Part shown: piece after piece, positions 688-56,260 of the stretch
Layout: each line of letters starts with the position of its first letter
Position numbering within the stretch: position 1 is the first letter of the stretch
Assembly (NCBI GenBank): GCA_002869885.2
Contig: NEWR02000007.1
Location: 34,753-98,752 of the forward strand
Source of the DNA: Nitrospira sp. CG24C
GTDB lineage: Bacteria > Nitrospirota > Nitrospiria > Nitrospirales > Nitrospiraceae
Length of the DNA: 64,000 nucleotides
Direction of reading: 5' to 3'
Notes under the pieces: generated by a model
What the model was told of the DNA's origin: nothing
Database searches by the model: none
Seen by the model: the letters and a program-made list of their open reading frames with translations, nothing else
Made by a program: the position numbers and the translations under genes

Positions 688-809
688 CAGAATGCTGAAA
701 CTGGTTTGTTTTGTTTGTCCGGTTGATCTGGTTAATCAAACGAACGAGACAAACCAAACAAACCAACCAAATAACGGTCTTCTTGCGCTGGCAGACTTTT
801 TAGCATCCG
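688..809. repeat. TGGTT-type 9-nt-unit palindrome, copy A
   Basis: It begins CAGAATGCTGAAACTGG and ends near TTTTTAGCATCC. Between lie a T/G-rich arm (units TGTTTTGTT, TGTCCGGTT, GATCTGGTT) and an A/C-rich opposing arm (units such as AAACCAAAC), then a shoulder AACGGTCTTCTTGCGCTGGC. It aligns along nearly its whole length with the reverse complement of copy E (25974-26104). It directly follows the thiamine-binding protein gene. Confidence 0.85.
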
Positions 810-5587: not shown

Positions 5588-5723
5588 CGGATAGGCGAGA
5601 CGCGCGGGACGGGCGAGAAAGGCGCGACGTGCAAGACCAAGACAAGGTGAGGATCGCTTGGATCTCTGCCCGTCCCGCCTGTCGCGCCTTTCACGCGAGT
5701 CTCGCCTGTCGCGCGCCGTTAGG
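5588..5723. repeat. GC-rich palindrome of 9-nt units (GGCGNGACR) filling a convergent junction
   Basis: The left arm reads as units GGCGAGACG, CGCGGGACG, GGCGAGAAA, GGCGCGACG. The right arm (about 5667-5723), read on the minus strand, gives GGCGAGACT, CGCGTGAAA, GGCGCGACA, GGCGGGACG. The arms face each other and fill the space between the stops of the FadL-like gene and alr. It could act as a bidirectional terminator or 3'-end protector. A one-armed relative is at 27191-27243. Confidence 0.8.
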
Positions 5724-6852
5724 CGGATTCATAAATGCGTGGAACGCGGGAGCCTATTCCGCAGAGGACTTCATAGGGGATCGTGCCGATCCAATCGGCC
5801 ACTTCATCAGCCCAGATCGATTCCTTTCCCTGCTGCCCAATCAGCGTGACGGTCTCACCGACTGTTACCGGCGCGAGGTCGGTGACATCCACCATGATCA
5901 TATCCATGCAGACCAGACCGACGATTGGGGCCCGGCGTCCCTGAATCAAGACTGATCCGCGATGGGAGAGCCGACGGCTATAGCCGTCGGCGTAGCCGAT
6001 CGGCAGTACCGCAATGCGGGTCTGTCGTTTTGCGACGAATGTCCCGTTGTAGCTGACGGAGCACCCTTTCGGAATAGTCCGCAGTTGGGCGACCGTGGTG
6101 TGAAGTGAGAGGACTGGTCTGAGGTCAGGATCTGGGATTGTGGCAGGCAGGGTGTGATACCCGTACAGCATAATGCCGGGGCGCACGAGCGAAAAGTGTG
6201 CGGCGGGAAATCTGACGATGGCGGCACTGTTTGCCGCATGCACCAATGGAAGAGTGAGACCGCGGAGCCGGACTTGGTCTAGCATGGCGCGAAATGCGGC
6301 AAGTTGCTGCTCCGTAAAGGCAGAATCTGCTCCATCTGCATCGGCCAGGTGGGTCATCAGGCCTTCAATTTTGAGGGAGCTGTGCAAGAGAGGGTTGTCG
6401 AGGACTGCGAGTAGCTCGTCCTGAGAAAATCCTAGCCGGCCCATCCCGGTTTCGACCTTGAGGTGAATCGGGTAAGGAGCTTGATGTGAATGAGCTGCCT
6501 TGGCCAAGGTGGGAAGGATGCGCCCATCGCTGACAACCGGGGTCAGCCGGTGAGCAATCAGGTCGGGAATTTGTTCTTCAAAGAGCGCTCCGAGAATGAC
6601 GATAGACGCTGAGAGACTGGCTTGGCGGAGTGCGATCCCTTCGTCGAGAGAGGCGACGGCAAACTGTCCGATGCCTTGGCGGGCAAGCGACTGAGCGATC
6701 TCGACCGCTCCATGTCCGTACGCATTGGCCTTGACGATCGCCATGACCTCGCAGCCCGGAGACAGGTAGCGCTTGATGCGAGAGAGATTGTGGGCAAGTG
6801 CCGCGAGATTGACAGTAGCGTAGGTGGGTAACAAGATTGAAATGGAGGTCAC
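5719..6852 (-). CDS. alr: Alanine racemase
   Basis: The 377-residue product is a PLP-dependent fold-type III enzyme that interconverts L- and D-alanine for peptidoglycan. The Schiff-base lysine is in the family motif AIVKANAYGHGA (K41). The C-terminal domain carries the catalytic-tyrosine region CSVSYNGTF and the conserved VLPIGYADGY. The length is normal for the family. It opens at GTG, overlapping the frr stop by 4 nt (GTGA), so it is translationally coupled as the last gene of the rpsB-tsf-pyrH-frr-alr string. Its stop codon lies in the right arm of the GC-rich palindrome. Confidence 0.95.
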   Translation of the reverse strand: MTSISILLPTYATVNLAALAHNLSRIKRYLSPGCEVMAIVKANAYGHGAVEIAQSLARQGIGQFAVASLDEGIALRQASLSASIVILGALFEEQIPDLIAHRLTPVVSDGRILPTLAKAAHSHQAPYPIHLKVETGMGRLGFSQDELLAVLDNPLLHSSLKIEGLMTHLADADGADSAFTEQQLAAFRAMLDQVRLRGLTLPLVHAANSAAIVRFPAAHFSLVRPGIMLYGYHTLPATIPDPDLRPVLSLHTTVAQLRTIPKGCSVSYNGTFVAKRQTRIAVLPIGYADGYSRRLSHRGSVLIQGRRAPIVGLVCMDMIMVDVTDLAPVTVGETVTLIGQQGKESIWADEVADWIGTIPYEVLCGIGSRVPRIYESA

Positions 6853-16939: not shown

Positions 16940-16948
16940 CAGATTGTT

Positions 16949-17040
16949 ATTTGGTTTGTTTTGTTTATTTGGTTGATTTGGTTCATCAGATTAGTTTCGT
17001 TCAACCAAACAAACGAAAGAAACCAAACGAACCAAATAAA
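16949..17040. repeat. TGGTT-type 9-nt-unit palindrome, copy B
   Basis: The T/G-rich arm contains TGTTTTGTT, TATTTGGTT, GATTTGGTT and then CATCAGATTAGTTTCGTTC. That last part is the reverse complement of the loop seen in copies F and H. The opposing A/C-rich arm follows. It lies between addA and the metallopeptidase gene and ends 5 nt before the latter's ATG, so it may also affect that gene's translation. Confidence 0.85.
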
Positions 17041-17411: not shown

Positions 17412-17483
17412 ACTCAGGTGTTTAGGCTGAAGGGGTTCAGGCTGAAGTGTTCGGAACTTCGAACCCAGAACTTCGAACTTCGT
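17412..17483. repeat. TTCAGGCTGAAGG / GAACTTC short-unit array
   Basis: It reads TTAGGCTGAAGGGGTTCAGG followed by GAACTTC units. The first half matches the element at 22736-22832 and a truncated piece at 19187-19211. The last 28 bases (17456-17483) match 49792-49819 with one difference. It lies in the convergent gap between the metallopeptidase and PEP-CTERM genes. Confidence 0.7.
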
Positions 17484-18917: not shown

Positions 18918-19180
18918 TGATCTTCCACTGAGCGCGTCCAACGAATGCTGGTTCATCTGGTCTATCTGGTCTATTTCGTCTATCTCGATTGTTTGGTTGA
19001 TCGGACTGGAAATTCATCCAGAAGGACCAGACAGACCAGAAAGACCGGCCAACTAGACAGACGAGTCCGTGCGCGTTGCGCGAGCACAGAAGATCATCAG
19101 GCTCCATCCCACTTCTGTTCTGCGAGCAAGAAGGGCACCTGGCCGCTCCCCCCTCTGCTGGCGAACTTTTCGGCATCCTG
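18918..19180. repeat. Composite nested repeat containing TGGTT-type palindrome copy C
   Basis: Outer arms TGATCTTC (18918) and GAAGATCA (19089) enclose GCGCGTCCAACGA, then TGGTT-type units (CATCTGGTC, TATCTGGTC, TATTTCGTC) with their opposing arm (ACCAGACAGACC), then GCGCGTTGCGCGAGCACAG. A downstream part, 19123-19159, is nearly identical to 56225-56260. The end TTTTCGGCATCCTGC matches the right ends of copies A and E. It reads as one element inserted in, or merged with, another, lying 3' of lgt. Confidence 0.75.
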
Positions 19181-19186
19181 CTAAAT

Positions 19187-22735: not shown

Positions 22736-22832
22736 CGGAAGGGATTCAGGCTGAAGGGGTTCAGACTGAAGGGTTCGGAACTTCTGATTCAGACCTTCGG
22801 CCTGAACCCCTTCAGCCTATCTACCTGGGTCG
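22736..22832. repeat. TTCAGGCTGAAGG-type palindrome filling a convergent junction
   Basis: The left arm GATTCAGGCTGAAGGGGTTC and the right arm GGCCTGAACCCCTTCAGCC face each other between the Sel1 gene and the PilZ-like gene. Its outer right arm (CAGGTAGATAGGCTGAAGG on the minus strand) matches the copies at 17412 and 19187. Confidence 0.75.
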
Positions 22833-25060: not shown

Positions 25061-25858
25061 CTAAGTGCCTTGGAAGCAGGTCTTCAGAAATGCGGCCGTT
25101 GCCTCCCAGGCCTCTGCCGTTGTATCGGCACGATAGTTTTCCACGCGCTGTTCATTACAAAAGGCATGGGGAGCATTGGGGTAAGTCCTGATCTCGACGC
25201 GTTTGTGATGCTCAGCCGCCGCAGCGCGCAACCGTTCTACATCCTGACTGGGCACCCATTGGTCCTGACCGGCCTGGTGATAGAGTGTCGGACAGAATAA
25301 ATCTTTGATTGCAGTTTCAGGCTGCATGACTCGGCCGTAATAGACGGCTGCGGCGCGAAGCCGTTTCCGTTGGCAGGCGAACCGGAGCGCATAGGATCCA
25401 CCCATGCCGTAGCCAACCACGCCATGGATGTTTCGTTTAATGTAGTCGCGTGTATTGAAGAACTCACAGCAAGAATTGATGTCTTGCAGAACGAGTGATT
25501 CGTTCAGCTTGCCCATGAGCGCATCTGCAACCTCTGCGTTGGCCGTGACCATGCCACCCAGTCGAGCGTATAAGTTCGGAATGATCACGCCGTAGCCTTC
25601 GCAGGCCAGTCTGGCTCCGAGATCCTTGATTTGCGCGGTTAGTCCCCAGGCTTCATGCAAGAGGACGAGCCCGGGGTAGAGACCTTTTTCCTGAGGCCAA
25701 AACTGAATACAGTCTACATGCACATGTTTCGAGACGCGTGTCTGGATATAGGGATCGGCTGCAGCATCGGTCAGTGTAGGAATGGCGAGGCCGCTCGGAA
25801 AGCGAACGGCACCCGTACCGATTTGATCCAAGGTAAAGGGAGCGATGGTCGATGTCAT
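25061..25858 (-). CDS. Dienelactone-hydrolase family protein lacking the usual nucleophile
   Basis: The 265-residue alpha/beta-hydrolase resembles dienelactone hydrolases: PGLVLLHEAWGLTAQIKDLG, VIIPNLYARLGG and the acid/His elements QAGQDQWVP and NAPHAFCNE. In the family the nucleophile sits in VGFCxGG. Here the sequence is VGYGMGG, with codon GGC in place of the usual TGC cysteine. The protein may be inactive, use another residue (a Ser lies two positions later), or have another role. The function of a hydrolase should not be assumed. The assigned start gives a normal family length. Confidence 0.8.
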   Translation of the reverse strand: MTSTIAPFTLDQIGTGAVRFPSGLAIPTLTDAAADPYIQTRVSKHVHVDCIQFWPQEKGLYPGLVLLHEAWGLTAQIKDLGARLACEGYGVIIPNLYARLGGMVTANAEVADALMGKLNESLVLQDINSCCEFFNTRDYIKRNIHGVVGYGMGGSYALRFACQRKRLRAAAVYYGRVMQPETAIKDLFCPTLYHQAGQDQWVPSQDVERLRAAAAEHHKRVEIRTYPNAPHAFCNEQRVENYRADTTAEAWEATAAFLKTCFQGT

Positions 25859-25973
25859 TACGGCAATCTCTTTTCCATCAAGGTTTTACGGGATAGGCCC
25901 TATTCAGATTGAGCGTGATACGATGCGCGGGTACTATAGGGACCGGGCTGTTGGGCTGTCAATCGACCTCTGG

Positions 25974-26104
25974 CAGGATGCTGAAACAACCCGCCAACGG
26001 AAGAAGACCGTTTTTTTGGTTTATTTGGTTTGTCTTGTTTATTTGGCTAAACCAGACAGACCAGATGAACCAGATAAACAAAACAAACCAGTTTGAGCAT
26101 CCTG
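25974..26104. repeat. TGGTT-type 9-nt-unit palindrome, copy E, with terminal inverted repeats
   Basis: The most complete copy. Ends CAGGATGCTGAAAC (25974-25987) and GTTTGAGCATCCTG (26091-26104) are inverted with one mismatch. Between them lie the shoulder GCCAACGGAAGAAGACCG, one arm (TATTTGGTT, TGTCTTGTT, TATTTGGCT) and the opposite arm, whose minus-strand units are TGTTTTGTT, TATCTGGTT, CATCTGGTC and TGTCTGGTT. It lies in a divergent gap, unlike most other copies, and runs opposite to copy A. Confidence 0.85.
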
Positions 26105-26156
26105 CGTGAGTGTGCTGTCATTGCCCAGACGGATAGATTTACATCGAGTTTTAGTT

Positions 26157-26197: not shown

Positions 26198-27190
26198 ATG
26201 GATGTGATGACTATGCCCCTTAGAATCGGTCTCATCGGCGCCGGCAGGCATGGTAGCCGGTATATCCAGCATCTTCTGCATGATTTGCCAGGGGTAAGCC
26301 TTGCCGCTCTCTGCCGGAAACGGATCGGGGAGAGACTGCCTTCGCTTCCAATGACAGAGATCCCTGTCTATGGGGACTATCGTGCTTTGATTGCCGATCC
26401 AACGGTAGAGGCCATTGTAGTGGTGACCTCTCCGGCGCTCTGTCTAGAGATCTGTCTGGAAGCTGTGAAGGCGCGGAAGCCAATCCTCATTGAAAAGCCA
26501 TTAGCACCGACAGGACGAGAAGCGCGAGTGATGGTGGCGGCGGCAGAGGAGGCAGGCTTGTTGCTGATGACCGCACAGACCTTGCGTTTCGATTCGTCTA
26601 TTCTACTTTTGAAGGAACATTTGCCGGAGATCGGTCAGTTTCGGTACGCCACTTTCACCAGCCGGATTGAAACGAAAGCCAGTGCCCATGTTCGCTCACC
26701 GATGCCAGGTCAGCGCGGAGCACTCTTGGAATTTGGGGTTCATCTCTTGGATCTGGTGCCCTTTCTTACCGGCGAAGAAGTGGTCGCCGTCCGCTGCGAG
26801 TTGGACCAGCTTCCGAGCGTGGCGCCGGAGACGATGGCGATCGTGCAGGCACAGACTACAAGCGGCCTGCGATGCATCCTCGACGTTGCACGAGTCGAAG
26901 CGGGGCGGATTGCTCGAACGGAGTGGGTGGGTACGAAGGGGCAGATCGCCGCTGATTGGTTTCATCAGCGGGTGAGTGGGGTCATTGGTGATAGCGCTCC
27001 TGTGGAATGGGATGTCCAGCCGCAGCAGACGATCCTTGCCACGCTCCGCGCCTTTCTCCATGCCATTGAAACGAACAGCCCGCCGCCTATTACCGGGCGC
27101 GATGGTTGTCGAGCCGTCGAGGTGGCCGACGCCTGCTACCGTTCGGCAGAGCTTGGCGGGGCCACGGTTAGCGTCGCATCTCTTCGTTAG
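26198..27190 (+). CDS. Gfo/Idh/MocA family oxidoreductase
   Basis: The 330-residue protein has an N-terminal Rossmann domain with the nucleotide motif RIGLIGAGRHGSRY. It is followed by VVVTSPALCLEICLEAV and the family EKPLAPT motif carrying the conserved lysine. The C-terminal domain includes LLEFGVHLLDLVPFLTG with the usual GxHxxD pattern and ends GCRAVEVADACYRSAE. Family members oxidise or reduce sugars, inositols or similar with NAD(P). The substrate cannot be told. ATGs at 26198, 26207 and 26213 are all possible; the conserved part begins at the third. The gene is probably monocistronic. Confidence 0.85.
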   Translation: MDVMTMPLRIGLIGAGRHGSRYIQHLLHDLPGVSLAALCRKRIGERLPSLPMTEIPVYGDYRALIADPTVEAIVVVTSPALCLEICLEAVKARKPILIEKPLAPTGREARVMVAAAEEAGLLLMTAQTLRFDSSILLLKEHLPEIGQFRYATFTSRIETKASAHVRSPMPGQRGALLEFGVHLLDLVPFLTGEEVVAVRCELDQLPSVAPETMAIVQAQTTSGLRCILDVARVEAGRIARTEWVGTKGQIAADWFHQRVSGVIGDSAPVEWDVQPQQTILATLRAFLHAIETNSPPPITGRDGCRAVEVADACYRSAELGGATVSVASLR

Positions 27191-27243
27191 AAGAGATCGC
27201 CGCCTGTCGCGCTTTTCCCGCCCGCCTCGCCCGTCTCGCTGAG
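27191..27243. repeat. One-armed GC-rich 9-nt-unit array in a convergent junction
   Basis: Read on the minus strand it is AGCGAGACG, GGCGAGGCG, GGCGGGAAA, AGCGCGACA, GGCGGC, matching the units of the palindrome at 5588-5723. It fills the entire gap between the oxidoreductase stop and the Lrp-type gene stop. Confidence 0.7.
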
Positions 27244-27480
27244 TTATGCGTCGGCGACGATATGCGTATCTGTTTCTTCCACTCCCTCGACTTGATGGAT
27301 TTTTGTAATCACCACATCCGAGAGGGCTCGCTCGTCCGAGACTGCGATGAACAGAATAATGTCCGGACGTCCGAAGCAGGAGTGGGCTTGTTCGACGCCG
27401 GCTAGGCGTTTAAGTGTTTGTAGTACATCTTTTGTCTTCCCGGCCTTGACCTTGATCAGGATATAAGCTTTTGTTGCCAT
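27244..27480 (-). CDS. Lrp/AsnC ligand-binding (RAM) domain protein
   Basis: The 78-residue protein is a stand-alone RAM domain: AYILIKVKAGKTKDVLQTL, GVEQAHSCFGRPDIILFI and ITKIHQVEGVEETDTHIV. It has no helix-turn-helix. Such small proteins form oligomers that bind amino acids or other small ligands and may act as sensors. GGGAGG precedes the ATG at 27480, which was preferred over an in-frame start 12 codons upstream. It is a single gene. Confidence 0.88.
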   Translation of the reverse strand: MATKAYILIKVKAGKTKDVLQTLKRLAGVEQAHSCFGRPDIILFIAVSDERALSDVVITKIHQVEGVEETDTHIVADA

Positions 27481-52904: not shown

Positions 52905-53010
52905 CCCGGTTTGTTTGGTTCATTTTGTTTATTTGGTTGATTCGGTTCATTTCGTTTAACCAAACAAACGAGACAAACCAAATAAACTAAATAACGTTTT
53001 TCTTCCGCTA
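52905..53010. repeat. TGGTT-type 9-nt-unit palindrome, copy G
   Basis: Units TGTTTGGTT, CATTTTGTT, TATTTGGTT, GATTCGGTT and CATTTCGTT face an A/C-rich arm whose minus-strand units are TATTTGGTT, TGTCTCGTT and TGTTTGGTT. The shoulder TTTTTCTTCCGCTAGAACGC corresponds to that of copies A and E and contains the stop codon of gspN. It separates gspN from gspL within the operon. Confidence 0.85.
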
Positions 53011-56158: not shown

Positions 56159-56260
56159 GGGGAGCGGCCGAGGCTGCCCTTTACTGCGCGCCTCGCCGAG
56201 CACAGTTTCATCGTGCGCGTTCTACGAGCAAGAAGGGCACCTGGCCGCTCCCCCTCTGCT
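56159..56260. repeat. Long inverted repeat between gspG and gspF, related to the lgt-side composite
   Basis: GGGGAGCGGCC (56159-56169) pairs with GGCCGCTCCCC (56243-56253). Inside are TGCCCTT/AAGGGCA and further GC-rich segments. The right part (56225-56260) matches 19123-19159 with one C missing. It abuts the gspF stop codon. Confidence 0.8.

Follow-up and report, generated by a model that had tools for sequence, protein, structure and literature searches.

We propose that copy E, a 131-base repeat at 25974-26104 of the Nitrospira sp. CG24C window (the whole 64,000-nucleotide stretch of DNA that was analysed), is a decayed IS5-family MITE of the genus Nitrospira whose core has since been exchanged in place. 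We put the probability of this reading at roughly 0.85.

Copy E and its boundaries

Copy E sits between two divergent genes. Its ends, CAGGATGCTGAAAC (25974-25987) and GTTTGAGCATCCTG (26091-26104), are complementary at 13 of 14 positions, in agreement with the preliminary description, in which inverted ends bracket the palindrome. That description also gave the repeat a defined outer boundary. Position 25974 is indeed a true end, but 26104 marks an internal inverted copy of the end. Both right-hand ends could be recognised in 58 elements of the family, and in these about 80 bp separate the inner end GAGCATCCTG from TTTTTCCGCAGCCTG further right. The bases downstream of E align with the first half of this right-hand module, and the E element must therefore once have extended past 26104; intact, it would run about 80 bp further to its outer end. 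Both the outer end TTTTTCCGCAGCCTG and the second target copy have been deleted from E, with an identical truncation in its ortholog in genome G004, and empty orthologous sites pick up again at 26145. The features of the locus are:

25061-25858, minus strand: dienelactone-hydrolase-family protein, neighbour of E
25970-25973: CTGG, presumed remnant of the left 4-bp target copy of E (CTAG here in the G031 ortholog)
25974-25998, plus strand: left terminal end of the E element, CAGGATGCTGAAACAACCCGCCAAC, a locus-specific variant of the family consensus CAGGATGCTGAAAAAGTCCGCCAGC, found elsewhere only in the G004 ortholog
25999-26090, plus strand: P9 palindromic core (units of about 9 bases) with shoulder GGAAGAAGACCGTT; a T1-type core stands here in G004
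26091-26104, plus strand: inner inverted end GTTTGAGCATCCTG, not the outer boundary
26105-26144, plus strand: what truncation left of the right-hand module (about 80 bp when intact), from alignment to intact modules
26198-27190, plus strand: GFO/IDH/MocA-family oxidoreductase, neighbour of E

As DNA, E folds far better than shuffled sequences do (z about -7). A promoter-like site (TTGACA-18-TATAGT) lies on the minus strand directly left of the element, and TTGATC on the plus strand to its right is, by inspection only, a possible -35. Rfam matched two tRNAs in the whole window and nothing else.

Other copies in the window

The related repeats in the window include the following:

684-687: CTAA, first copy of the target duplication of copy A
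688-809, minus strand: copy A, a related element of 122 bp with a P9 core
810-813: CTAA, second copy of the target duplication of copy A
16945-17040, plus strand: copy B, a P9 core at a CTAG-type site, ends mostly lost
52908-53007, minus strand: copy G, a P9 core with shoulder, end sequence mostly lost

The end-to-end alignment of E with A in opposite orientation, reported earlier, was reproduced, with complementary arms of 45 nt (89%), 40 nt (80%) and 33 nt (79%). Target duplications had been called unclear; this holds for E, where none is visible because the outer right end is deleted, but not for A, whose flanking CTAA copies are plain. Copy G does keep part of the shoulder, as had been claimed, and reads CTAG and then CGGAAGAAAAACGTTATTT on the minus strand; at its site in relatives there are several different occupants, and their hairpins differ. 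Truncation, proposed earlier for the other copies, partly accounts for B and G, but the palindrome is an exchangeable core that unrelated cores have replaced at orthologous sites. Copy C was said to end in GGCATCCTGC, but that sequence is found about 130 bp past the C palindrome, near 19171-19181. Copy C (18943-19184) has an end-like TTTCGGCATCCTG at 19168-19180 with CTAA directly after it, and possibly represents a longer element.

The P9 core of copy B is inverted relative to its orthologs (L338, L339 and L341) within otherwise matching flanks, and is 98% identical to that of G020 in reverse. Other short-period palindromic repeats of the AGGCTGAAGGGGTTCAGG and CCGCCTGTCGCGCC types occur in the window at 17416-17475 and 22740-22830, and at 5595-5725 and 27200-27250; the same kinds serve elsewhere as alternative cores. 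There is also a 36-base direct repeat, GTTCTGCGAGCAAGAAGGGCACCTGGCCGCTCCCCC, at 19117-19152 and 56219-56254 (97% identical).

A family with common ends and different cores

The host genome (2.99 Mb in 22 contigs, 94% complete) gave 40 scored forward matches to E, about 12 of them nearly full length. The genome contains 129 occurrences of the 23-base left end, counted with at most 3 mismatches, and 194 YTAR-tagged ends; the reversed control gave 0 in both cases. By rough ORF calls, the copies are mostly intergenic (22 between co-directional ORFs, 16 convergent, 5 divergent), while 4 lie inside ORFs and 3 were undetermined. Family units are mostly 120-340 bp long with no gene inside, and their terminal inverted repeats are common to many copies, the outer ends being intact in the 58 elements described above. 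Identical ends enclose different middles, of the T1, P9, GGTGAGTCCCC, GTGAAACG, GCGAGAC and GAGGTTAAGG types. In T1 cores the hairpin unit measures about 124 bp (CGTTCTCGCATCG...CGCTGCGGCCTTGCTGG), and P9 is the palindrome of E.

At least 113 contig stretches carry the 29-base end, and almost all of them bear the label of Nitrospira or its relatives. Two contigs that carry the element under labels of other phyla, L110 (a Pyrinomonadaceae MAG) and L172 (an Akkermansiaceae MAG), are probably misbinned, because in L110 there is also a match to the end of the gene next to copy A. With regard to phage spread, the exact 22-base end had no match in the viral collection. A text search of the literature for the end sequence returned no paper, and no name for the family was found in the literature searched, including under Nitrospira and MITE.

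Target duplications and empty sites

The four bases before the left end equal the four bases after the outer end in 32 of the 58 elements, among them cases of TTAG, CTAA and CTTG. Because the pattern used to retrieve elements from relatives contained CTAG, these are biased in this respect, and the fair test is the host genome alone; there, with L184 and L199 left out as belonging to relatives, an exact 4-bp flank duplication was present in 7 of 13 elements (expected 3.0, P = 0.0025). Pairing of left and right 4-mers gave no signal in unoriented elements, because inner and outer ends were mixed, whereas a signal was present after orienting. Among 235 left ends, the preceding bases were CTAG in 122, TTAG in 11 and CTAA in 10, counts to which the same CTAG-pattern bias applies. 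IS5 duplicates Py-T-A-Pu, most commonly CTAG and then CTAA and TTAG (PMC5493358). Because the target tetranucleotides of the family are those known for IS5, we assign its 4-bp YTAR duplication, hidden in E by the truncation, to the IS5 type.

Comparison of orthologous sites gives a second view of mobility. At the E site, G008, G029, G026, G027, G007 and G028 have only about 12 bp (e.g., gtcaat-CTGGCTGCAACGGT-cgag), and G031 has a full element, GGCTG[CTAG]CAGG...CCTG[CTAG]GGT. Empty orthologous sites were likewise found for L002 (in G025), L005 (in G013, with flanks 95-98% identical, in G017 and in four others), L006 (in G017) and L007 (in five relatives). It had been suggested that sites always occupied in relatives would speak against mobility; six relatives lack any element at the E site. 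The idea of a mobile, MITE-like unit is thus borne out by empty sites, by 4-bp duplications and by the IS5-family transposon with the same outer end described below.

Elements of other families occupy the E site in G006, G014 and G017. One of these families is also MITE-like: it has GCCCGCATTATTCATGA at its ends, its palindromic cores are of kinds already described (GCGAGAC types), and it was seen at E and L004 orthologous sites (L186 in G014, L192 in G024 and L397 in G006); no transposase was seen for it. Another occupant of the E site, L185 in G006, is a short gene-less unit with the ends of an IS1182-family transposon, GAGCCTGTCCGACA.

IS5-family transposons that share the outer end

Two DDE transposases of the genus, found in two sister species, are bounded by CAGGCTGCGGAAAAA...TTTTTCCGCAGCCTG:

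L215, 1329-2647: IS5-family transposon, 1319 bp, target copies CTAG/CTAG
L226, 1329-2646: IS5-family transposon, 1318 bp, target copies CTAG/TTAG

The L226 protein scores 267 bits against the IS5-family model NF033581 (cut-off 140) and matches Pfam DUF772 and DDE_Tnp_1. Like the MITEs, these transposons have the outer right end CAGGCTGCGGAAAAA in identical form and CTAG or TTAG target copies; unlike them, they encode a transposase of about 362 aa. The left end of the MITE is a variant (CAGGATGCTGAAAAA), which differs from the IS end by 2 mismatches in the first 15 positions (13/15 matching), and the interiors, compared by eye, are unrelated. Homologues of this transposase occur in 10 of 32 genus genomes, and none was found in the 94% complete host genome. 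The IS5-type enzyme of L215 and L226 is the probable mover of the elements.

Other candidates for an autonomous element were rejected. Three convergent end pairs spaced 1.1-1.8 kb apart (L128, L146 and L174) have host genes inside. L211, considered as an element whose module encodes a transposase, is a transposon of the IS1182 family bounded by different ends (GAGCCTGTCCGACA); it occupies 1320-2950, has CTAG flanks and is nested in an old element.

Replacement of the core at orthologous sites

At E, L004, L010 and L016 the core differs in place between genomes. E and its G004 ortholog have the same left-end variant, GCTGAAACAACCCGCC, which only 2 of 348 distinct ends show, and the same 3' truncation, but the G004 core is T1-type with an extra segment, unrelated to the P9 of E. 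Because the core of G031 at this site also has T1-like pieces, P9 at E is probably the derived state. The L004 site has P9 in G000 and G017 and T1 in G014 and G031, with the end variant common to them or nearly so, CAGGACGCTG being present in both P9 and T1 forms; other hairpins are found there in G013, G023 and G006. At L010, G000 has P9 and G013 has T1, and at L016, G000 has P9 and G013 a GAGGTTCAGG core, between flanks 98% and 94% identical. The relatives are mostly draft genomes, in which repeat misassembly could mimic a core swap at single loci. The palindrome is an exchangeable core and not the element itself, and exchange by conversion or recombination between copies is the most likely route.

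All occupants of the compared sites fold better than shuffled sequences (z -2.2 to -10.7, as against -1.1 for an element-free site), and occupants of one site across species have little core sequence in common. A tentative and rather doubtful extension is that hairpins are kept at fixed intergenic positions in Nitrospira while their sequence is freely replaced from among a few families of palindrome (P9, T1, GCGAGAC, GTGAAACG, GAGGTTAAGG). These would be common to element families with different ends, and selection or a replacement process would act on folded shape and not on sequence.

A different account of the same sites accepts an IS5 origin but holds that the differing cores reflect loss and fresh insertion into the same target, with no replacement in place. 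IS5-type targets are short and reused, and at copy A a single CTAR target has differently oriented elements, so that re-insertion is possible there; the other-family elements at the E site in three relatives point the same way. However, a fresh copy would not carry private ends or a private truncation, and at E different cores share both a rare left end and the 3' truncation, just as at L004 the variant end accompanies both cores. We consider this account improbable overall.

It is similarly improbable that the P9 palindrome is itself the mobile unit and that the inverted ends of E and A belong to old elements which it entered. In favour of this, P9 cores lie at many places where no ends can be recognised, and the junctions of P9 forms with the ends are fixed; yet at E, L002, L005, L006 and L007 presence or absence concerns the entire element between its ends, end remnants lie beside P9 at sites B and G, and no duplication was seen around P9 alone. 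A REP/REPIN-type palindrome with a RAYT tyrosine transposase as its mover, in line with the REP-like label first applied, would suit the palindromic, mostly extragenic, high-copy character of the repeats and the TAG beside one end. It is very improbable, however: units are mostly 120-340 bp as against REPs of 20-40 bp (PMC3733652), the outer end is shared with a DDE transposon, and the 4-bp YTAR duplications largely refute this reading for the outer unit.

A model for copy E

Under the reading of E as a decayed IS5-family MITE, the complete unit would be about 200 bp long and consist of a YTAR target copy, the left end CAGGATGCTGAAAAAGTCCGCCAGC, a palindromic core, the inner inverted end GAGCATCCTG, a module of about 80 bp, the outer right end TTTTTCCGCAGCCTG and the second target copy. 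An IS5-family transposase, presumably acting on the outer ends, would insert the unit at YTAR and duplicate 4 bp. E would have entered between the divergent genes in an ancestor of the host and G004, and probably of G031 too, and its outer right end would have been lost later through the deletion in common with G004. The core would then have changed to P9 (T1-type in G004), most likely by conversion or recombination with another dispersed copy through common ends, with the locus-specific left end and the truncated module unchanged. We regard the role of the element as that of a mobile spacer; any further function is only conjectural.

If this is correct, IS5-type elements that jumped account for a large group of repeats without a name in an important genus of nitrifiers. 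The host genome yielded no transposase for them, and their hairpin cores would turn over fast. Core replacement in place that leaves private end mutations intact would allow the exchange between dispersed repeats to be measured in a bacterium. There is also a warning here, in that position alone is no basis for reading such intergenic hairpins as conserved signals.

Comparison with known systems

REP/REPIN sequences with RAYT (PMC3733652, PMC3116915) resemble the E family in being palindromic, extragenic and of high copy number, but they are 20-40 bp long and tied to tyrosine transposases, whereas the E family is longer and leaves 4-bp duplications. The nearest described IS5-family MITE with a repeat core is BrickBuilt of Porphyromonas gingivalis (PMC4596501). 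Like the E family, it is short and non-autonomous, with IS5-family-like terminal inverted repeats, a repetitive core and a target duplication visible by comparison with empty sites in other strains. The two differ in end sequences and in host phylum, and the BrickBuilt core is a 23-base tandem whereas that of the E family is a palindrome of units of about 9 bases. A further difference is that, in the E family, unrelated cores are found at orthologous insertions.
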